Source of the DNA: Chthoniobacteraceae bacterium
GTDB lineage: Bacteria > Verrucomicrobiota > Verrucomicrobiia > Chthoniobacterales > Chthoniobacteraceae
Direction of reading: 5' to 3'
NCBI GenBank assembly: GCA_028293625.1
Contig: JAQGOL010000012.1
Location: 1 to 64,000 of the forward strand
Length of the DNA: 64,000 bases
Shown here one piece after another: positions 1-12,160 of this stretch. The stretch's first letter is position 1. The number at the start of each line of letters is the position of its first letter. The position numbers and the translations under genes are program-made. Below the pieces are notes generated by a model. It was not told where the DNA came from and searched no databases. It saw only the letters and a program-made list of their open reading frames with translations.

Positions 1-146
1 ACTTCGAGTTCTCGAGCGAGTTGGGCGACGGCACGCCCGCTTTCCATCAACTCCACGGCTTGGCGTTTAAAGGCTTCCGTAAAGGAGCGTCGGCTCTCGG
101 GGTTCTTAAGGATTTGGGATTGCACGGGGGTCTGTTTCACTTTCAT
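1..146 (-). CDS. IS3-family transposase OrfA, N-terminal part (runs off window)
   Basis: Reading the reverse strand from ATG at 146 gives about 48 residues that run off the left edge. They contain RRSFTEAFKRQAVELM and AVAQLARELEV, the helix-turn-helix start of IS3-family OrfA proteins (HTH_Tnp_1), which bind the element ends. The start lies 33 bp inside a plausible IS terminus at 179, the usual IS3 layout. OrfB and the other end would lie outside the window, so activity cannot be judged. The family call is firm; the subgroup is not determined. Confidence 0.85.
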   Translation of the reverse strand, partial: MKVKQTPVQSQILKNPESRRSFTEAFKRQAVELMESGRAVAQLARELE

Positions 147-217: not shown

Positions 218-523
218 ATGAAAATCGAATTATTCAGTAGTGCCTCTGATGGCTTTCCGTGGGGGTTGTTTGCGCTTTGGGGTATTATTTGGCTCGGCGT
301 TCTCTATCGAATTCTGACTCGCGACGATTTCGACACGGCTTCCAAAATCCTTTGGACTATGGTTGTCATCTTTGTTCCTATCTTTGGCATACCTCTCTAT
401 TGGTTTGCTGCTCCGAGTTTGAAGAGTTCGCGTCACCAGCAAAAAGTAGATCAAACTGTTCTCGGGAGCGATGTCTCCGGCACTCCGTGGGCCAGCAACC
501 CTGGATTCACTAATGAAAAGTGA
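218..523 (+). CDS. Small membrane protein with PLDc_N-like domain
   Basis: 101 residues. Two hydrophobic segments (about residues 13-30 and 45-65) enclose LTRDDF and end in a V-F-I-P-I-F-G-I-P-L-Y-W-F stretch. This is the pattern of the phospholipase D/cardiolipin synthase N-terminal domain (PLDc_N) seen in short stand-alone membrane proteins; no catalytic HKD motif is present. ATG 218 was chosen over an upstream in-frame ATG at 146 because that one overlaps the IS terminus and adds a non-membrane leader. The base composition is less GC-rich than the chromosome to the right. A copy of the local repeat begins 16 nt after the stop. The role is unknown. Confidence 0.6.
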   Translation: MKIELFSSASDGFPWGLFALWGIIWLGVLYRILTRDDFDTASKILWTMVVIFVPIFGIPLYWFAAPSLKSSRHQQKVDQTVLGSDVSGTPWASNPGFTNEK

Positions 524-538
524 ACTTCAATCGTCGAA

Positions 539-605
539 CCCTGAAGTTTGTTCCGGTGCGGCGCAGCCGAGATCTGTAAAACCACTTTCGGGGAACCGGC
601 AGTGC
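539..605 (+). repeat. Dispersed gene-end repeat, copy 1
   Basis: The core CCTGAAGTTTGTTCCGG (540-556) is followed by GAGATCTG and ACTTTCGGGGAACCGGCAGT. It aligns over its whole length with copy 3 (2305-2369) and at the core with copy 2 (1512-1529). It can fold through TTCCGGT against ACCGG. It lies just behind the stop of the preceding small gene. Confidence 0.6.
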
Positions 606-636
606 TGCTTCCATGGCAAAATAGGACGCGCACTCT

Positions 637-1047
637 ATGAAAAAAAGTAGAATAGCCATCGTGTGTGGAATAACTGGCGTCATTGCGATGGCCGGATTGA
701 TCATTATCCCGCGGCATCGAGAGCGAGTCCACGTCCGTAATCGAGTCGAGGGCATGCGCCGCGTTTTGAAAAGCGGCGATATGCAAGGTGTCGCCGCTTT
801 TGTGCTCCCGAAGAGACCAGACGACCAAGCCCAAAAACTTTTGCCGCACTACCGAATTCCACTGGAGGATTACCGGATGCGCGTTGGCACCGATGACTCC
901 GTTCCCTTTATCTGGATCAGCGGAGATACCGCCAACGTGATTCCCCGCGTGGAATATCATTTCGGGATTCTACCCGGAGGCAACTCGCTCGAAATGAGGA
1001 AAGAAAATGGCGAGTGGTATTTTACCGGAAGACTTTTCATCGACTGA
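637..1047 (+). CDS. Hypothetical protein with N-terminal membrane anchor
   Basis: 136 residues. A charged MKKSR start is followed by one hydrophobic segment (about residues 6-24, IAIVCGITGVIAMAGLIII), then a soluble region rich in R, E and aromatic residues (DYRMRVGTDDSVPFIWISGD, EWYFTGRLFID). This fits a signal anchor with an extracytoplasmic domain. I recognise no family. An attC-like element begins 12 nt after the stop, so this could be the gene of an integron cassette (inference). Confidence 0.55.
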   Translation: MKKSRIAIVCGITGVIAMAGLIIIPRHRERVHVRNRVEGMRRVLKSGDMQGVAAFVLPKRPDDQAQKLLPHYRIPLEDYRMRVGTDDSVPFIWISGDTANVIPRVEYHFGILPGGNSLEMRKENGEWYFTGRLFID

Positions 1048-1059
1048 TCAACCAACGTA

Positions 1060-1158
1060 GCCTAACCAGCGCTCCACTCGACAGCACAGGGCCAAGGAAC
1101 TCCCTCTGAATCCCAGCGTTTCTCGCCCTCCGCTGTGAGTAAGCTTCTTTCGTTAGGC
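1060..1158 (+). other. attC-like recombination site (candidate)
   Basis: GCCTAAC (1060-1066) matches the R'' box consensus RYYYAAC, and GTTAGGC (1152-1158) matches the R' box GTTRRRY; the two are exact reverse complements 99 bp apart overall. Between them CTCGACAGCACAGGGC (1077-1092) pairs with GCCCTCCGCTGTGAG (1125-1139), with one bulged G and a two-base mismatch, as in folded attC sites with extrahelical bases. Orientation and position behind a small + strand gene fit a cassette end. Spacers between the outer and inner boxes are longer than in canonical attC, and no integrase is visible. Confidence 0.45.
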
Positions 1159-1231: not shown

Positions 1232-1510
1232 ATGAAGTCCATATCCATCACCACCATCATCTGCGGCACTGCCCTTATTGTCGCTCCAATCGTCCAGAAC
1301 ATTCTGACCCTGCACATGGTCGCAAGTCTCATGGCGCAGACACACGAACGCGTTGATATGACAGGCCCTCTGAGCAATTCTTACAGTTCTTGGTGCCTTT
1401 TCATTGGCGTCTGTGTTATCATTAGTGGTCTGCTTGTTGGATTGCGATTTCGGAGCGCGCCGGAGAATCACAATTCGATAGGTTCCCATGTGGCAACAAG
1501 CAACGCCTAA
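1232..1510 (+). CDS. Small two-helix membrane protein, unknown function
   Basis: 92 residues with two hydrophobic segments (about 5-30 and 50-72) and a short polar tail. No family is recognised. It follows the attC-like element by about 70 bp and its stop codon is contained in GCCTAAC (1505-1511), directly before copy 2 of the local repeat. Like its neighbours it is an orphan small gene on the + strand in a compositionally distinct stretch. ATG 1232 is the only start that keeps the first helix intact. Confidence 0.5.
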   Translation: MKSISITTIICGTALIVAPIVQNILTLHMVASLMAQTHERVDMTGPLSNSYSSWCLFIGVCVIISGLLVGLRFRSAPENHNSIGSHVATSNA

Positions 1511-1511
1511 C

Positions 1512-1556
1512 CCTGAAGTTTCGTTCCGGCGCAGCCCGAAATGAAACTGCTTCAAC
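1512..1556 (+). repeat. Dispersed gene-end repeat, copy 2
   Basis: CCTGAAGTTTCGTTCCGG (1512-1529) repeats the core of copies 1 and 3. Here GTTTCGTTCCGG can pair with the following CCCGAAATGAAAC to form a short hairpin. It begins one base after the stop of the preceding gene. The remaining bases up to the next gene (to 1729) show no recognisable feature. Confidence 0.55.
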
Positions 1557-1729
1557 GAATGAAGAGTTTCCCGAGTGGAGAGCTGCCTATTCCCGTTCAA
1601 GCCCATGCCATACAGGCGTTGCTGCCACCCGTGGCTTGATGTTATCCTTTCCGCCTTGGTCGGGTAAATGCTCGGGAAGGCGTTGACTGCTCGATAAGAA
1701 TGTCAGGCGACTTAGGCGCGTAGCGTACA

Positions 1730-2309
1730 ATGAAATCCACAAAACTCAGCCCAGGCCAGTATCGCATCGAATCAGCCATTGGTACGTTCATCGTGCAAGC
1801 TTCAGAACGCGGCCTCCACAGACTACCAATGGGGCGTCTTCACGGACGAACTTAAGGTGCTTGAGTTGGGCTACACCAAGTCTGACTGCGAGTATGCAGT
1901 GGAGACATGGGAGCAAGGCACACCGATTCCAGACCCGCAAGATTACGACCTTCGCTTTCCCTCTTACATTGGCTCCAAACGCCTCGACCCGGGCACATAC
2001 CGGATGGAGACGCCTGTCGGCACCTTCCTTATACGAAAACTACCAGACCGCAAACGCGGTGAGTTTCAGTGGGGCATCTTTTCCGAGCAGGATGAGTTTT
2101 TCGCCGATGATCTCACCCGTGCAGATTGCGAGTCGCTCGTGCGCGACTGGGTAGCCCACGGCCTCAGGCCATCTGCGACGCGCCTTCCTGTCCAGCGCGT
2201 CAATGCCGCCATAGTGCCCCATACTAAATCCGGGTGTCTTGGGTGCATAGCAGCCCTCGTTTTGCCTTTCGCCTATGCTTTCTGGCGTGCCATCCAAGTC
2301 GCCTCCTGA
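1730..2309 (+). pseudogene. Two-module hypothetical protein, broken by a frameshift
   Basis: The frame from ATG 1730 gives LSPGQYRIESAIGTFIV and then stops. The frame open to 2309 continues with YQWGVFTDELKVLELGYTKSDCEYAVETW. A second complete module follows in one frame: LDPGTYRMETPVGTFLIRKL, then FQWGIFSEQ and TRADCESLVRDW. Aligning the modules places a frame change between about 1793 and 1828 (37 nt lie where a whole number of codons is expected). The C-terminus ends in a hydrophobic segment (CLGCIAALVLPFAYAFW). It may be a pseudogene or a consensus error. The module family is not recognised. Confidence 0.6.
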
Positions 2310-2511: not shown

Positions 2512-3282
2512 TCACTCAATGTGAGGTGCCAGATTCGGGACGACTTTCTTGAGCTCGTGGGCAACCATCCGGCCGAAGATCCGGCTGCCTTTTTCGTTCA
2601 AATGCGTGCCGTCCACCTGCTGTCCGCTGGTGTCTGCGGAGGGATTGGTCGGGTCGGCATTCTTTAACGGCGAAATCTCCAGGACTCCTTCCTTGCCCAT
2701 TTTTTCATACTCAGCGATCGACAAGGCGTGCAGGTCAATCAGCGGGACATTTTTCTCGGCGGCGATCGCCTTCACGGCATCGGCCCAAGGTTCCAGTTGA
2801 GGATTGATCTTTCCGTCGGCTCTCCAAGTTCGGCGGCTCAAGGAAGTCACCAGCACCGGTTTGATGTCGGCGGCAATGGCTTCCTCCACATATTGCGTCA
2901 TGTATTGCCTGTAGGTGGTTTGCGGGTCGGTTGCGCGCTCGCCGTGGCCGGGCTGATCGTTGTGGCCGAATTGGATCAGCACGTAGTCGGGTCGCATATC
3001 CAGAACCTTCTTCCATGAACTTTCTTTGATAAAGCTGCTGGAACTCCGCCCGCCCCTGGCGACATTGATGACCTGCACGTCGTCTTTCGTCGCGTTAGCG
3101 AAGCCTTTACCCCAGCCGGCGTTGTCGGTCACCGTCGAATCGCCTGCGAGAACGATATGGATTTTACCGGGCTGGAGAGCGGGTGTTGCCGGCTCTTCCG
3201 CCAAACTCGATGCGCCCAGCGCTAAGAACACTGCGGCGATGGCGCTAAAGGCAACCATTTCATTGAGCAGCTTGGTAGTCAT
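2512..3282 (-). CDS. Secreted rhamnogalacturonan acetylesterase (CE12, SGNH hydrolase)
   Basis: 256 residues with a signal peptide (hydrophobic to about 27, ending SSLAEE). SGNH blocks are all present: GDSTVTDNAGWG with the nucleophile Ser, NVARGGRSS, FGHND, and DGTHLNEKG near the C-terminus carrying the Asp/His pair. The GDSTVTD form is typical of rhamnogalacturonan acetylesterases (RhgT/YesT type), which remove acetyl groups from pectin backbones so that lyases and hydrolases can act. It is the last gene of the pectin locus, 50 nt after the pectinesterase gene and in the same direction. Confidence 0.85.
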   Translation of the reverse strand: MTTKLLNEMVAFSAIAAVFLALGASSLAEEPATPALQPGKIHIVLAGDSTVTDNAGWGKGFANATKDDVQVINVARGGRSSSSFIKESSWKKVLDMRPDYVLIQFGHNDQPGHGERATDPQTTYRQYMTQYVEEAIAADIKPVLVTSLSRRTWRADGKINPQLEPWADAVKAIAAEKNVPLIDLHALSIAEYEKMGKEGVLEISPLKNADPTNPSADTSGQQVDGTHLNEKGSRIFGRMVAHELKKVVPNLAPHIE

Positions 3283-3332
3283 TCAGATGAAGGGCAAATA
3301 GATCATGAACTAAGCCGTATGCCGACATTTCC

Positions 3333-4397
3333 CTACTTCGCTGGTTCATCTGCTGGGTTCCAGTCGTCCTTGCCCGCGAGCACCGTTTTGGCCGTGATAT
3401 TGGCCGCCTCCTCCTTGCTCAGCCGCTTTGCCCACGCCACACGCTGCTCCGGTTGCACACCGGGTCCAGTATTGCCAAACTCAGCAAAACGCGTTGTGGC
3501 TTCGTTTTCCGTTTTCCCCCAGTTGCTCCATCCCTCGGGCTTAATGTGGTCGCCCATCTCGCACTCGATGAACGCCACGCTGCCATACGGCCGCCACGGG
3601 CGGCCAAGATGTGCGTTTGGAAGCTTCCACACTGTCGCCGGTGTTAGGCCCGCAGGGTCCACCCATGGGACTGCGTCTCCGGTGAGTTTGCAACGCAGGA
3701 ACACGAAGCCGAAAGGCCGCTCGGGTGGTGTGCTGGCGGCAGTGACATAGCCGCCATTTTTGCTGTGGAGGTGGCACTGGTCGAAGACCGCAATCCCGTC
3801 GCCGTAGATGAAGTCCACCCGCCCTTCGATGTAGCAGTCCTTGAAATACTGCCGACCTTTGTTCACCATCAATGTGTCCTGCCAGCCAAGCAGTCGGCAG
3901 TTGCTGAAAACCACGCGGTCTGCGTCCACGCGAACGGCCAGACCTTGCCCGTGGTCGCCTGAGGTGTTGCGAAATGTAATGTTCTCCGCGCGAAAGCCAT
4001 CGCCCCGAATATGAACTCCGGGGTTCGTCCCATCAGCCCCGACGGGAATCGGATCCTTCACGTTCCTACCCCAAGTGATGATGGTTGATTGAGCATTGTC
4101 ACCCTTGAATGTCATCAACGTTTTACTGGTTGGCACCACAACTGGGCCTTCATAAATGCCAGCTCTGACACGGAGAATCACGCGCTCGGAACCCATTGCG
4201 GGCACGGCCGCAACCGCCTCCTGCAGTGTCTTGAAATCGCCGCTTCCGTCCGCAGCCACCGTGATGGATTTCTCGGCCGCAAACAATGATGCGGAGCCAA
4301 AGAACAGGATGAGCGAGCAGGCGGCAAGCGCGTAGGCTATGTTCACGAAGATGGGAGGTTGTAACATATGTGATCGAGAAGTGTGGGTGTTTGTCAT
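3333..4397 (-). CDS. Secreted pectinesterase (CE8)
   Basis: 354 residues, right-handed beta-helix pectin methylesterase. ITVAADGSGDFKTLQEAV near the mature N-terminus, GWQDTL, GRVDFIYGDGIAVFDQC (catalytic Asp) and LGRPWRPYG (substrate-binding Arg/Trp) are the family motifs. It hydrolyses methyl esters of homogalacturonan, producing polygalacturonate for the GH28 enzymes of the locus. ATG 4397 overlaps the stop of uxaC as ATGA, which supports this start over the upstream extension; a second ATG at 4367 sits closer to the signal peptide and is an alternative. The signal peptide ends near SLFAAE. Confidence 0.88.
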   Translation of the reverse strand: MTNTHTSRSHMLQPPIFVNIAYALAACSLILFFGSASLFAAEKSITVAADGSGDFKTLQEAVAAVPAMGSERVILRVRAGIYEGPVVVPTSKTLMTFKGDNAQSTIITWGRNVKDPIPVGADGTNPGVHIRGDGFRAENITFRNTSGDHGQGLAVRVDADRVVFSNCRLLGWQDTLMVNKGRQYFKDCYIEGRVDFIYGDGIAVFDQCHLHSKNGGYVTAASTPPERPFGFVFLRCKLTGDAVPWVDPAGLTPATVWKLPNAHLGRPWRPYGSVAFIECEMGDHIKPEGWSNWGKTENEATTRFAEFGNTGPGVQPEQRVAWAKRLSKEEAANITAKTVLAGKDDWNPADEPAK

Positions 4398-5827
4398 GGT
4401 GGAAATGCGAAGTATTGCCGTGCATTTGCGTGGCAGATGGCGCGCACGAGCGGGCCGAGCAGCGTGTCGTCGTTCGGCAATTCGCCTGCTTCGATGTCGC
4501 GGCCGAGCAGGTTGCACAGCACGCGGCGGAAATACTCGTGGCGCGGGTAGGACATGAAGGAGCGAGAATCAGTCACCATGCCGACGAAGCGCGAGAGCAG
4601 ACCGAGGTTGGAGAGGGAGTTGAACTGCCACTCCATCGCTTCCTTCTGATCGAGGAACCACCAGCCGCTGCCGAGCTGCACCTTGCCGGGAATGCTCCCA
4701 TCCTGAAAATTGCCGAGCATCGTGGCGAAGACGTAATTATCCGCCGGATTGAGGTTGTAGAGGATTGTTTTTGGCAGGGAGTTCTCACGGTCGAGCCTAT
4801 CGAGGAAGGCAGCAAGCGCAGTGGCCTGCGGAAAGTCGCCGATCGAGTCGAAGCCGGTGTCGGGGCCGAGCGTGCGCAGGAGCCGGGTGTTGTTGTTGCG
4901 CAGTGCCCCGAGGTGAAGCTGCATCGTCCAGCCGCGCTCGGCGTAGAGACACCCCAGGAAGACCATTAGGAACGAGGCAAACTTTGCGTGCTCCTGCGGT
5001 GAGGCCGCGTGGCCTGAGCGCGCGGTCACAAAAATGGCGGCGGCTTCTACTTCGGTACATGGCTCGGCGTAGCAGCGCTCCAGGCCGTGGTCGGAAAGGC
5101 GACAGTCGCGTTCATGGAAGAAGTCGTGGCGCTGGCGCAGCGCGTCGAGCAGCGCGGGGAGCGAGGCAACGCCGCTGCCGCAGATCTCTTCCAGCCGCGC
5201 GATCCAAGCGTTGAAGGACTCGGGACGATTGACGGCGAACGCGGTGTCTGGACGGAAGGTGGGCAGCACCTGTGTCGCGATGCCGCTGCGCGCGATGGCT
5301 TCGTGAAAGCGCAGGTCGTCCGTCGGGTCATCCGTCGTGCAGAGCGTGCTGACGCGGAACTTTTTCAAAATGCCCTGTGTCGAAAACTCCGGCATGGTGA
5401 GCTGCTCATTCGCCCGCTCCCAGATGCGCTCGGCGCTCGATTCATTGAGCAGCTCGGAGATGCCGAAGCATCGCGCGAGCTCCAGGTGGGTCCAGTGATA
5501 GAGTGGGTTTCGCACGGTATGCGGCACGGTCGCGGCCCATGCTTTGAACTTCTCCAGCGGCGACGCATCGCCTGTGCAGAAGCGCTCAGGCACACCGTTC
5601 GAGCGCATCGCGCGCCATTTGTAGTGATCGCCTTCGAGCCAGATCTCAAAGAGGTTCTTGAACTGCCGGTTCTCCGCGATGTCGCGCGGCGAGAGGTGGC
5701 AGTGGTAGTCGAAGATCGGCTCCGGTGCCGCGAACTCGTGGTAGAGCCGGCGAGCCGCGCGTGTGCCTAGTAGGAAGTCTTCGTGAATGAAGGCGCGGGC
5801 CTGCATGGTAGGTGGAGCGAAGCTCAC
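4394..5827 (-). CDS. uxaC: Glucuronate/galacturonate isomerase UxaC
   Basis: 477 residues, full length for uronate isomerase. FDYHCHLSPRDIAENRQF near the N-terminus holds the His-X-His metal ligands of the amidohydrolase-like barrel. Later blocks FVGMVTDSRSFMSYPRHEYFRRVLC and LHLGALRNNNTRL are characteristic. It converts D-galacturonate to D-tagaturonate in the cytoplasm, the first intracellular step after import. GTG 5827 overlaps the preceding gene's stop as GTGA; ATG 5806 (MQARAFIHEDF) is an equally reasonable start. The stop overlaps the pectinesterase start. Confidence 0.95.
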   Translation of the reverse strand: MSFAPPTMQARAFIHEDFLLGTRAARRLYHEFAAPEPIFDYHCHLSPRDIAENRQFKNLFEIWLEGDHYKWRAMRSNGVPERFCTGDASPLEKFKAWAATVPHTVRNPLYHWTHLELARCFGISELLNESSAERIWERANEQLTMPEFSTQGILKKFRVSTLCTTDDPTDDLRFHEAIARSGIATQVLPTFRPDTAFAVNRPESFNAWIARLEEICGSGVASLPALLDALRQRHDFFHERDCRLSDHGLERCYAEPCTEVEAAAIFVTARSGHAASPQEHAKFASFLMVFLGCLYAERGWTMQLHLGALRNNNTRLLRTLGPDTGFDSIGDFPQATALAAFLDRLDRENSLPKTILYNLNPADNYVFATMLGNFQDGSIPGKVQLGSGWWFLDQKEAMEWQFNSLSNLGLLSRFVGMVTDSRSFMSYPRHEYFRRVLCNLLGRDIEAGELPNDDTLLGPLVRAICHANARQYFAFPP

Positions 5828-7161
5828 GGTTTCGCAGCGGGCGGATCGAGCGGTGTGGCGGCCATCCCCTCGACTTGAGCGTTGAACGTGGTGAGGGCCG
5901 CACCCTTTCCGGCGTGAATTACCACGTTCTCGCAGCGAATGTCTTTAGCGTGGTAAACGACCGCGCCGCGGTCTGCTGTGATGCTCAGATTTTTCAACGT
6001 GACGCCCGTGATCGGCTGCTCCCGAAGCCCCCAGATGATGATGGCATTCGGGCAGTCGCTGATCGTGCCGTTCTCAATCATAATGTTTTGCCACTGCGGC
6101 GTCCTGGCTCCCGGCGCCTGGCCTTCGTCCTCGTCGGGGCGGTTCGGCTCCCTCGGGTAGTAGCTGGAAATGAAGATCGGTTTTTCCACGTTCCTCATCG
6201 TTATGTTTTTGAACGTGAGGTTCTCGACCAGGCCCCCGCGGTCGCGGGCCGCCTTCATCCGGATGCCTGAGGTGGTTCCGTCGAATGTCATGTTTTCCAC
6301 GGTGATGTTACGAATGCCGCCCGATGTATAACTGCCAAAGGACAAGCCGTGGCCAACGCCAAGTTTGCAGTCCGACACGAAGACATTTTCCACCCCTGGA
6401 GTCCCTTCCTTATTCGAGGCGCTCGCGAGGAAGACGATGTTATCGTCGCCTGTCGCGATATGGCAGTTGCGGATCACAGCGTTCCGGATGTTCAGATTCA
6501 GCGCGTCGGTATTGGGAGAATCAGCCGGCGCAAGCATGGTCAGGCCTTCAATGGTCACCTCCTTGCACTGGCGCAGTGAGCAGTGCGTGTTCGGAGGATT
6601 GAGCGTTGTGATTCCCTGCAGTTTCACCCGCTCGCAGCGCGTGAAGGCGATCATCTGCGGTCGGCGTGGCTCGGCTTCTGACGCAGCCGTGCCCTTGGTT
6701 TTCCGAAAGGCAGCCCACCATGGCTCGCCTTGCCCGTCGATGGTGCCTTCGCCGCTGATCTGAACATCCTTTGCTTCCGTGGCGGTGATGAACCCCAAGC
6801 GTTCGCGCTTGGTGCCAGCATAGTCATCGCCACGCTGGCTCATCTTGACAGTGGCGCCTTTCACCAAGTGCAGGTCCGTCGCGCTCCGCAGCTCAAATGG
6901 CCCGGTCAGGAAACTACCTTCCGGCACGACGACGTGCCCGCCGCCAGCCTTGGCACATGCTTCGATCGATGCGCGAAAGGCGGCGGTATTCATCGTAGTT
7001 CCGTCGCCCACCGCGCCGAAATCGGTGATCGTAAAGTTGCGCTGTGGGATTGCGGGCGCCTGCGGAACGATGGCCGGTGGCTCCGCGGCCACTACTGGAT
7101 TCATTAGCAGCACCACCGCGCTCGCGATGGCAAAGATGGCGGTGTTGGTTGGTCTTAACAT
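5824..7161 (-). CDS. Secreted polygalacturonase, GH28
   Basis: 445 residues with a signal peptide (about 1-26, ending VVAAEPP). The GH28 catalytic blocks are visible in order: SPNTDALNL (NTD), ATGDDNIVF (paired Asp), GVGHGLSFGS (catalytic-site GHG) and SGIRMKAA (RIK equivalent). The NTDALNL block has Ala where many members have Gly. It hydrolyses alpha-1,4-galacturonosyl bonds of de-esterified pectin outside the cytoplasm. The stop overlaps the uxaC GTG by 4 nt and the regulator gene ends 20 nt upstream, so it is in the same transcription unit. Confidence 0.9.
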   Translation of the reverse strand: MLRPTNTAIFAIASAVVLLMNPVVAAEPPAIVPQAPAIPQRNFTITDFGAVGDGTTMNTAAFRASIEACAKAGGGHVVVPEGSFLTGPFELRSATDLHLVKGATVKMSQRGDDYAGTKRERLGFITATEAKDVQISGEGTIDGQGEPWWAAFRKTKGTAASEAEPRRPQMIAFTRCERVKLQGITTLNPPNTHCSLRQCKEVTIEGLTMLAPADSPNTDALNLNIRNAVIRNCHIATGDDNIVFLASASNKEGTPGVENVFVSDCKLGVGHGLSFGSYTSGGIRNITVENMTFDGTTSGIRMKAARDRGGLVENLTFKNITMRNVEKPIFISSYYPREPNRPDEDEGQAPGARTPQWQNIMIENGTISDCPNAIIIWGLREQPITGVTLKNLSITADRGAVVYHAKDIRCENVVIHAGKGAALTTFNAQVEGMAATPLDPPAAKP

Positions 7162-7181
7162 GCTCTTTATAGATGGGCTTT

Positions 7182-8330
7182 TTAACGTGCGCGCCGGACG
7201 ACCTTGCGAAACTCGGCCGGCGTGGTTTTCTCAGACTTCCGAAAGGCGACGAAGAAGGTGTTCAGGCTGGGATACCCGCTTCGTTGCGCGATTGACTCAA
7301 TCTTCTCCTCCGTCTCGGCGAGGCGTCGCTTCGCGTAATCGAGGCGCACCTGGCGAATTTTGTCACCCGGCGTGCAGCCGACGTGCTCCGTAAAAGCTTG
7401 CTGCAACCCACGCCGCGACATCCCGGCGACCCGCGCGACGTCGTCCACACTGATCGTGTCGGCGTAGTGCTCGGCGATGAAATGCAACCCGCGCGCGACG
7501 CCACTGTGGTTCACCGCGAGGATGTCGCTGCTCTTGCGGGTGATAACTCCGGTGGGCGCGATCCGCACCGGCTTCGCGGGCATCTTCGCACCACGCATCA
7601 TGCGATCGAGCAGCGCGGCGCCCTGGTAGCCTTGCTCTTCGAGATTCGTATCCACGCCGGAGACCGAGCGGTTCGCGGCGCCGACCGAAAGCAGGTAGTC
7701 GTCGATGCCGACGATGGCGACCTCGGCTGGGACGCGAATGCTTGCGTCTTCGCAAAGCTCCTGCACTTCCACGGCGAGCGTTCCATTCGCGGCGAAAACC
7801 GCGACGGGCTTTGGCCCGGCCTTGAGATGCGCGAGCAGCCACTCGCGGCGGCGCGTCCACTGGCTCTGCGCGGCGTTCGCATCTTCGCGCCAGCGAAGCC
7901 AGTCGCATTTGTGGCCGCTGGCCGCGAGCGCGTTGGTGAAACCTTCGCCACGCTCGATCTGCGACCAGTTTTCCGAGTCGCTGTAAAAGAGAAAGTTCCG
8001 CAGCCCCCGTTCGACGAAATGGTCTGCGACGAGCTGGCCAGTCCTAGCGTGGTCCTGCACGACGTGCGCGAACGGGAGGTGCGGCCGGCGCAGCGAAAAA
8101 TCCACCGTCGGCACTTTCACCGACGCGACGAAGTGCGCGAGGTCGTCGCCCGCGGCGAGCCACGCAAGCACACCATCGCCTTCCCAGCCCCACGGGATCA
8201 CTTTCTCGTGAATGATGCTGTGCGCGGCGAGGTGCCAGCGGTGCTGCGTCGCGTAGGCGGCGATGCCTTGCAGCAGCCGGTGATCATACCAACCGAGCGC
8301 CACGAGGACGTTCTTCTGCTTCGTCTTCAT
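7182..8330 (-). CDS. XylR-type transcriptional regulator (PBP1 sensor + AraC HTH)
   Basis: 382 residues. The first 270 or so form a LacI/periplasmic-binding-protein-like sugar sensor (NVLVALGWYDHRLLQGIAAY, then VAIVGIDDYLL and GYQGAALLDRMM). The last 100 are an AraC-type double HTH (ISVDDVARVAGMSRRGLQQAF, then ESIAQRSGYPSLNTFFVAFRK). This architecture is that of E. coli XylR. Lying inside the pectin locus, it probably binds galacturonate or an oligouronide and controls the locus (inference). ATG 8330 gives the domain without the long unrelated upstream extension. It is 5 nt downstream of the transporter gene. Confidence 0.85.
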   Translation of the reverse strand: MKTKQKNVLVALGWYDHRLLQGIAAYATQHRWHLAAHSIIHEKVIPWGWEGDGVLAWLAAGDDLAHFVASVKVPTVDFSLRRPHLPFAHVVQDHARTGQLVADHFVERGLRNFLFYSDSENWSQIERGEGFTNALAASGHKCDWLRWREDANAAQSQWTRRREWLLAHLKAGPKPVAVFAANGTLAVEVQELCEDASIRVPAEVAIVGIDDYLLSVGAANRSVSGVDTNLEEQGYQGAALLDRMMRGAKMPAKPVRIAPTGVITRKSSDILAVNHSGVARGLHFIAEHYADTISVDDVARVAGMSRRGLQQAFTEHVGCTPGDKIRQVRLDYAKRRLAETEEKIESIAQRSGYPSLNTFFVAFRKSEKTTPAEFRKVVRRAR

Positions 8331-8335
8331 GGCGC

Positions 8336-9712
8336 TCAGATCTTGGCCGGCTCCATCCGCGGCACGAGCAGGTGCATGATGCCGAGCGCGGCGAGATAGG
8401 CGCAGCCGGCGATGACGAAGAGCGTGGTGTAGCTGCCGGTCTTGCTCAGGATCGCGCCGGTGAGCTTGAGCAGGCCCATCGCGCCGAGCGCGCCAGCCAT
8501 GCCACCGAGCCCAACGATGGAGCCGACGGCGCGCTTCGGAAACATATCCGAAGCCGTGGTGTAAAGATTCGCCGACCAGCCCTGATGCGCCGCGGCGGCG
8601 AGGCCGACAAGCCACACGGCGGCCCACATGTTCGGCACCTGCGTGGCGAGCACGACGGGCACCACGCAGACCGCGCAGATGAGCATCGCCGTTTTGCGTC
8701 CCGCATTCACGCTCCAGCCCTTGGAGATGAGCCGGGAGGAGAGCCAGCCGCCGCCGATGCTGCCGACATCGGCCAGCAGGTAGATGAGCACGAAGGGCGG
8801 CCCGAAGCTTTTGATATCGAGCTTGAAGTGCGAACTGAAGAAGAGCGGCAGCAGATAGAGATACCAGCGCCAGACGGAGTCGGTGAGGAACTTGGCGATG
8901 ACGTAGGCCCAGGTCTGGCGATGCGGCAGCAGGCTCAGCCACGGCACTTTAGTCGTCGCTTCCGCCGGCCCATCGCTGCGGATGTAAGCGAGCTCCTGCG
9001 GGGAAAGGCGCGGGTGCGCTTCCGGTTCGCGGAAGGCGCGCAGCCAGAAGCAGAGCCACACGAAGCCGATTCCTCCGGTGAGGATAAACGCCCACTGCCA
9101 GCCCCACGTGAGATAGATCAGCGGAATCCCCAGCGGCGCGGCGATGGCGCCGACATTTGAGCCTGCGTTGAAGATTCCCGTGGCGAGCGCACGCTCCTTT
9201 TTTGGATACCATTCGGCGACCACCTTGATGGACGCCGGAAAATTTCCCGACTCACCGAGGCCGAGCAAAAAGCGCGCGATGCTGAACCCGAGGATCGTCG
9301 CCATGCCCGCGTGGAGCATGCAGGAGAGGCTCCAAAAAACCATCGCGCAGGCGAACCCCACGCGCGTGCCGATCTTGTCGAGGATGCGCCCGAAGCCGAG
9401 CTGGCCGATGGCGTAGGCGACCTCGAACCAGAAGACGATCCCGACGTAATCCGCGTCCGTCCAACTAAAGATCTTCTTCATCTCCGGCGCGAGGATCCCG
9501 AAGACCTGGCGGTCGATGTAGTTGATCGTCGTGGCGAAAAAGAGCAGCGCGCAAATGGTCCAGCGGTAGCGCCCGACGCGCGGCGGGTGGGCGTGGCTCG
9601 CAGCGATGACTTCGCCGGTGATGCTTGCGGCGCTGTCTTCTGACGGAGCGATGGGCGAGGCGGCTTTGACCGCATCGGAAGCGGTCAGCGGATCGGGGGG
9701 ACCCGGATTCAT
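8336..9712 (-). CDS. exuT: MFS hexuronate transporter, ExuT-like
   Basis: 458 residues, 12 predicted membrane segments after a 45-residue polar N-tail. TINYIDRQVFGILAPEMKKIF and FSWTDADYVGIVFWFEVAYAIGQ match the anion:cation symporter group of hexuronate transporters; GESGNFPASIKVVAEWYPKKERALATGIFNAG is the family's strongest block. It is expected to import galacturonate/glucuronate by proton symport in the inner membrane. The ATG at 9712 overlaps the upstream GH28 stop as ATGA. The gene symbol is by family and context. Confidence 0.88.
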   Translation of the reverse strand: MNPGPPDPLTASDAVKAASPIAPSEDSAASITGEVIAASHAHPPRVGRYRWTICALLFFATTINYIDRQVFGILAPEMKKIFSWTDADYVGIVFWFEVAYAIGQLGFGRILDKIGTRVGFACAMVFWSLSCMLHAGMATILGFSIARFLLGLGESGNFPASIKVVAEWYPKKERALATGIFNAGSNVGAIAAPLGIPLIYLTWGWQWAFILTGGIGFVWLCFWLRAFREPEAHPRLSPQELAYIRSDGPAEATTKVPWLSLLPHRQTWAYVIAKFLTDSVWRWYLYLLPLFFSSHFKLDIKSFGPPFVLIYLLADVGSIGGGWLSSRLISKGWSVNAGRKTAMLICAVCVVPVVLATQVPNMWAAVWLVGLAAAAHQGWSANLYTTASDMFPKRAVGSIVGLGGMAGALGAMGLLKLTGAILSKTGSYTTLFVIAGCAYLAALGIMHLLVPRMEPAKI

Positions 9713-12087: not shown

Positions 12088-12160
12088 AGCCGGCAGACGG
12101 GTTCGAACCGACGACCTGCTGATTACAAATCAGCTGCTCTACCAACTGAGCTATGCCGGC
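12088..12160 (-). tRNA. tRNA-Thr (anticodon TGT)
   Basis: On the reverse strand the 73-nt sequence folds as a cloverleaf: acceptor GCCGGCA/TGCCGGC, D arm AGCTCAGTTGGTAGAGC, anticodon stem CTGAT/ATCAG with loop TTGTA carrying TGT, T arm GTCGGTTCGAACCCGTC, discriminator T. CCA is not encoded. It reads ACA (Thr) codons. It follows the trxB-glycosyltransferase-GNAT genes on the same strand, and its 3' end faces two decayed gene fragments. Confidence 0.95.

Follow-up and report, generated by a model that had tools for sequence, protein, structure and literature searches.

A probable remnant integron cassette array at a contig end of a Chthoniobacteraceae genome

Cassettes enter an integron at attI, and the integrase IntI cuts the core site between G and TT. 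The attC sites carry an RYYYAAC inverse core and a GTTRRRY core within 57-141 bp, and IntI binds their folded bottom strand, in which extrahelical bases matter for recognition (PMC3053210). Verrucomicrobiota are counted among the integron host phyla in a 2021 review, which also describes CALINs, i.e. clusters of attC sites lacking an integrase (PMC8618304). No report of integrons in Chthoniobacter was found in a search of open-access papers.

The stretch of DNA analysed here (the window) comprises the first 64,000 nucleotides of contig C5 (92.7 kb) from a Chthoniobacteraceae genome of 6.83 Mb in 43 contigs, 96.4% complete (G000, the source genome). With a probability of about 0.93, we read window positions 1 to ~2400 as the remaining, partly decayed cassette array of a Chthoniobacteraceae sedentary chromosomal integron. 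The system resembles other integrons of this kind in its TIGR02249 integrase, its attC arrays, its small strain-specific genes and a toxin-antitoxin cassette in a relative. It departs from the canonical form in that intI appears to run with the cassettes in the genus of the source genome, and in that the window array is decayed and split by an IS and by contig ends. A CALIN is usually scored from at least two attC sites within ~4 kb without intI. The attC-bearing stretch of the window, on a contig where a TIGR02249 profile search gave no intI match, is like a CALIN and contains one attC by covariance model, or four if a second repeat family is counted; unlike a CALIN, it lies on a contig truncated at the array, so that the absence of intI may be an assembly effect.

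Small genes and elements at the contig end

Four small plus-strand ORFs (218-523, 637-1047, 1232-1510 and 1779-2309) are closed by elements at ~533, 1060, 1505 and 2298, respectively. The features of this region are:

3-146, minus strand: start of an IS transposase, HTH_Tnp_1 (PF01527, 27.2 bits), cut by the contig end at base 1
218-523, plus strand: cassette ORF, 101 aa, PLDc_N (PF13396, 36.6 bits, cut-off 23.3)
533-622, plus strand: second-family element, ~90-nt form, degenerate boxes (end approximate)
637-1047, plus strand: cassette ORF, 136 aa, no Pfam or NCBIfam match, ending 12 nt before R''
1060-1158, plus strand: attC (lineage type 1), R'' at 1060-1066 and R' at 1152-1158, identified from covariance model, 83% copy on C31 and fold
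1232-1510, plus strand: cassette ORF, 92 aa, no match over curated cut-off
1505-1708, plus strand: second-family element, long form, R''-like GCCTAAC at 1505-1511 and degenerate R' GTCAGGC at 1702-1708
1730-2309, plus strand: cassette gene, apparently frameshifted; the frame opened by the ATG at 1730 ends after 41 aa
2298-2388, plus strand: second-family element, ~90-nt form, overlapping the end of ORF 1779-2309 (end approximate)

The TAA stop codon of ORF 1232-1510 falls inside the next GCCTAAC box (1505-1511), the remainder of the frameshifted gene is open as ORF 1779-2309, and the element at 2298-2388 forms the last cassette end of the array. Both ORF 637-1047 and ORF 1232-1510 were absent from all 39 other genomes among the 40 of the family (present in their own only) and thus show no fixed synteny, as expected of cassettes. 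Minus-strand genes lie downstream, opening with a GDSL esterase followed by a pectinesterase; they form a pectin/uronate degradation locus directly after the array (2512-9712) that also includes a UxaC glucuronate isomerase, a GH28 protein, a sugar-binding AraC-type regulator and an MFS transporter.

At the proximal end of the array, contig C5 starts within the IS; since the window begins at a contig end inside this fragment, the array may continue leftward. The 5' part of the IS has near-identical copies close to or at the ends of 10 other contigs, four of which carry an attC or second-family element within ~1.5 kb of the IS (L220, L173, L192 and L031). The distribution suggests that this IS may favour or accumulate in cassette arrays.

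The attC site at 1060-1158 and its relatives

R'' (GCCTAAC) and R' (GTTAGGC) agree with the consensus inverse core and core and delimit a site of 99 nt end to end, within the described size range. An earlier note on this DNA, made from the letters alone, had reported these two boxes in the correct order and exactly complementary, enclosing an imperfect inner stem with a bulged base; both boxes were confirmed, and the inner stem was found where the note had placed it in the predicted fold of either strand. This fold is a hairpin with an R''/R' stem, unpaired spacers and an inner stem with unpaired bases, and on the folded bottom strand the inner L''/L' stem has its extrahelical bases on one side. 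Fold and model alignment of the bottom strand show one broken inner pair, and the unpaired bases deviate in identity from the lineage consensus.

The fold was only modestly more stable than those of dinucleotide shuffles (plus strand z -2.19, equalled by 6 of 200 shuffles; minus strand z -2.28, equalled by 7 of 200). Perfectly complementary RYYYAAC...GTTRRRY pairs 50-170 nt apart arose at a mean of 0.38 per shuffled 64-kb window, and the combined box and stem score of the site (15.3) was reached in 12 of 60 such windows. By itself, the box/stem pattern is not beyond chance. It is lifted above chance by a second copy in the same genome, 83% identical (C31:829854, E 5.6e-20), and by a covariance model from relatives. 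An Rfam search of the window returned only a tRNA at 12088-12160. A strict box and stem scan had yielded 1060-1158 and little else, with C29 seemingly devoid of an array.

This model, R1, was constructed from 28 aligned attC sites of other genomes and none from the source genome. The sites came from a relaxed box scan of intI loci in related genomes; the null rate of that scan was high (38 candidates in 348 kb), which limited its use to the collection of relatives' sites, after which the model replaced it. Within R1, 92.8% of cells were paired and 10 of 19 pairs showed changes on both sides; none of 500 shuffles equalled this on any of five measures, with slid controls far lower. When applied to 80 named intI loci, R1 gave 62 matches at E ≤ 0.1 in 31 loci, three of them training sites. 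All 62 lay on the other strand from intI, as the canonical integron layout demands, and on its 5' side as read from coordinates. R1 works as a general attC detector. Type-1 sites, as defined by R1, were present in at least 27 of 40 family genomes, including the source genome, with 93 candidates scored per genome.

In a search of 206 kb of the source genome, R1 matched 1060-1158 on the plus strand over the full model length (40.7 bits, E 4.9e-7), linking it by homology to the attC sites of intI-adjacent arrays in the same bacterial family. The best other match in the window (7.1 bits) was the opposite strand of the same site, and this low score indicates that the site has the same orientation as the small genes. 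The site scores lower than most sites in the intact arrays of relatives, where the best 28 of 48 reached 62-105 bits and several others 20-49 bits. Judged on its sequence, then, the element is a genuine attC.

When R1 was first run over the whole source genome, 150 of 4946 candidates were scored and the window site was not among the matches; contig ends were then searched directly. The resulting 834 kb, in 87 stretches that took in nearly every contig end and some interior sequence, gave 14 matches up to E 10, nine of them with E < 0.01: five on C36 and one each on C31, C32, C13 and in the window. These counts are lower bounds, with the left end of C36 and most contig interiors outside the search. 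The five C36 sites form an array within 2.2 kb, several of them each preceded by one small ORF, and the window has its one site plus three second-family elements.

The source genome also encodes an integron integrase. An intact intI lies at C29:562-1632 on the minus strand (434 bits with TIGR02249, whose cut-off of 265 none of 14 control genomes passed), on a contig that presumably also holds ribosomal protein and rpoB-like genes. A second, frameshifted copy lies on C19, and a third is an N-terminal fragment running off the end of C33; among the 40 family genomes, 11 (including this one) have an IntI above the cut-off. Directly upstream of each of the three copies is a minisatellite region, seen on C29 (L026, 1799-2049) as ~6 diverged copies of a 42-bp unit and as similar stretches on C19 and C33.

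The earlier note had proposed an attC within a cassette array, had seen one convincing site and no integrase in the window, and had advised covariance-model and intI searches, naming a lack of intI, a lack of other attC sites and fixed synteny of gene 637-1047 as evidence that would count against it. Its proposal is borne out at the genome level by the intact intI on C29, eight further sites at E < 0.01 in the 834 kb and strain-specific flanking ORFs, gene 637-1047 being found in none of the 39 other genomes. The note was right that the window has a single convincing site, as far as type-1 attC is concerned (the next best score falls in the same place), and right that it has no integrase, an absence that a contig break may explain, intI lying on another contig.

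In the mechanism that we propose, the bottom strand of 1060-1158 would fold into a hairpin, which the integrase encoded on C29 would cut between G and TT of GTTAGGC, presumably between G1152 and T1153. This activity would have brought in the adjacent small genes as cassettes in the past, and they could still be mobilised by it. Since both boxes and the inner stem are kept, recombination activity is plausible, and the site may still be active. The window array was, we infer, formerly joined to an intI locus, from which IS insertion and breaks in the assembly now separate it. Degenerate neighbouring sites and one frameshifted gene fit an old part of the array that is no longer exchanged.

The second repeat family and alternative readings

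A second repeat family, which starts with GCCTAACCCTGAAGTTTCGTTCCGG and is co-oriented with the neighbouring small genes, accounts for the window elements at ~533, 1505 and 2298. The family occurs at 14 places in the source genome and three in G002 of the same genus; among the 40 genomes, it had no matches in the same-genus G001 and G003 and weak single or double matches (E 0.005 to 0.09) in five others. R1 does not recognise the three window elements, and all three have a degenerate R'. The 1505 copy aligns with one on C25 at 76% identity over 207 columns, and the alignment ends at 1703, inside the R' box. A description of the family as 55-nt attCs with R' GTTGAGC was rejected, as covariation was unsupportive and homology extends past that box.

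We think that these elements are degenerate attCs marking further, decayed cassette ends, and that 1505-1708 is probably one such decayed site. They could instead represent a mobile or REP-like repeat of unrelated origin that has spread into the array, a reading that we consider unlikely yet worth keeping in mind: 13 sequences showed no covariation beyond shuffles, several length variants have different 3' ends, and copies also occur outside recognised type-1 arrays (C9, C28, C31 and C32). It is opposed by the boundaries of the repeats, since most pairwise alignments of 18 copies begin at the GCCTAAC (RYYYAAC) box and an R'-like box terminates the long form, and by their genomic setting. On C17 the repeat separates and closes a run of small co-oriented ORFs, and on C52 of G002 a HicB/HicA pair (PF15919, PF07927) sits as a cassette between a type-1 attC and a co-oriented second-family element. 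The C17 array also includes a stretch (~150-300, L177) that resembles the putative attI of C29 and C19 and ends in GTTAGGC, possibly an attI copy or hybrid site.

The single type-1 site in the window, together with a similar C31 site that stands alone within the 20 kb examined around it, would also suit a lone off-target attC or cassette inserted by an integrase in trans, outside any array. We hold this to be improbable, as the array-associated second repeat stands, in the same orientation, at three further gene ends of the window and the contig is cut at base 1, leaving the left side unseen. That 1060-1158 is a chance palindrome, or an ordinary intergenic hairpin or terminator between two small genes, is in keeping with the shuffled-window score and the fold z of about -2.2, but is very improbable given the E-value from a model of other genomes, the C31 copy and the co-oriented repeats at neighbouring gene ends.

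Integrase orientation relative to the cassettes

The attC sites are placed 5' of intI and on the other strand in G016, G019, G022 and G027, as well as in the named Chthoniobacterales/Spartobacteria records L054 and L078. At three loci of G001, from the genus of the source genome, intI and all attC sites share one strand, and 7 of 7, 2 of 2 and 4 of 9 sites are found 3' of intI; six of these 18 are training sites, whose strand had been chosen by score. The third locus (L145, G001:C60, 506-8656) has its other five sites on the 5' side of an intI pseudogene, which therefore sits inside the array.

The C29 and C19 loci of the source genome are ~90% identical up to a GTT 3' of intI and then diverge. 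Beyond this junction, C19 continues with GTTAGGC and a reading frame still open at the contig end, much as attI followed by a first cassette would. R1 found no credible attC on C29 (best matches E 5 and 6.3 in the 206-kb search, and none among the 14 matches in 834 kb), so that in the source genome the turned layout is read only from the C29/C19 junction.

A quick tree of 93 IntIs placed the five inverted ones in a clade with seven members (SH-aLRT 91). This clade is nested among Chthoniobacteraceae IntIs that have the divergent layout wherever their sites were mapped. The other two members of the clade, from G002 and G012 (both cut at the 3' end), had no 5'-side attC within 5.4 and 9 kb, respectively. 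In the genus of the source genome, intI appears to run with the cassettes, and close relatives of this genome appear to have turned the integrase round relative to them. Treponema chromosomal integrons share the layout of this clade (PMC3607928); unlike in Treponema, the layout here occurs in a clade inside Chthoniobacteraceae IntIs with divergent neighbours, and so looks like a separate change (in a tree built without Treponema IntI). Term searches of the available text of three papers (PMC2426708, PMC9668308 and PMC8352920) returned nothing on intI orientation in Verrucomicrobiota.

We put at slightly under an even chance the fuller interpretation of one lineage within Chthoniobacteraceae whose integrase gene was flipped to read into the array and whose arrays combine two unrelated attC families served by one integrase, the window showing the worn end of such an array. 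The site at 1060-1158 adds to a known kind, as integrons in Verrucomicrobiota have already been reported; an intI turned to run with its cassettes, and two attC-like families mixed in one array, may be new and deserve specialist attention. For the detection of integrons, our results mean that training a model on sites from related genomes can decide the status of a lone, weak attC candidate at the edge of a contig, and that Chthoniobacteraceae are a place where integrons are common. The intI flip, if real, would let the role of the divergent layout in cassette expression be tested, and two site families would let the same be done for integrase specificity.
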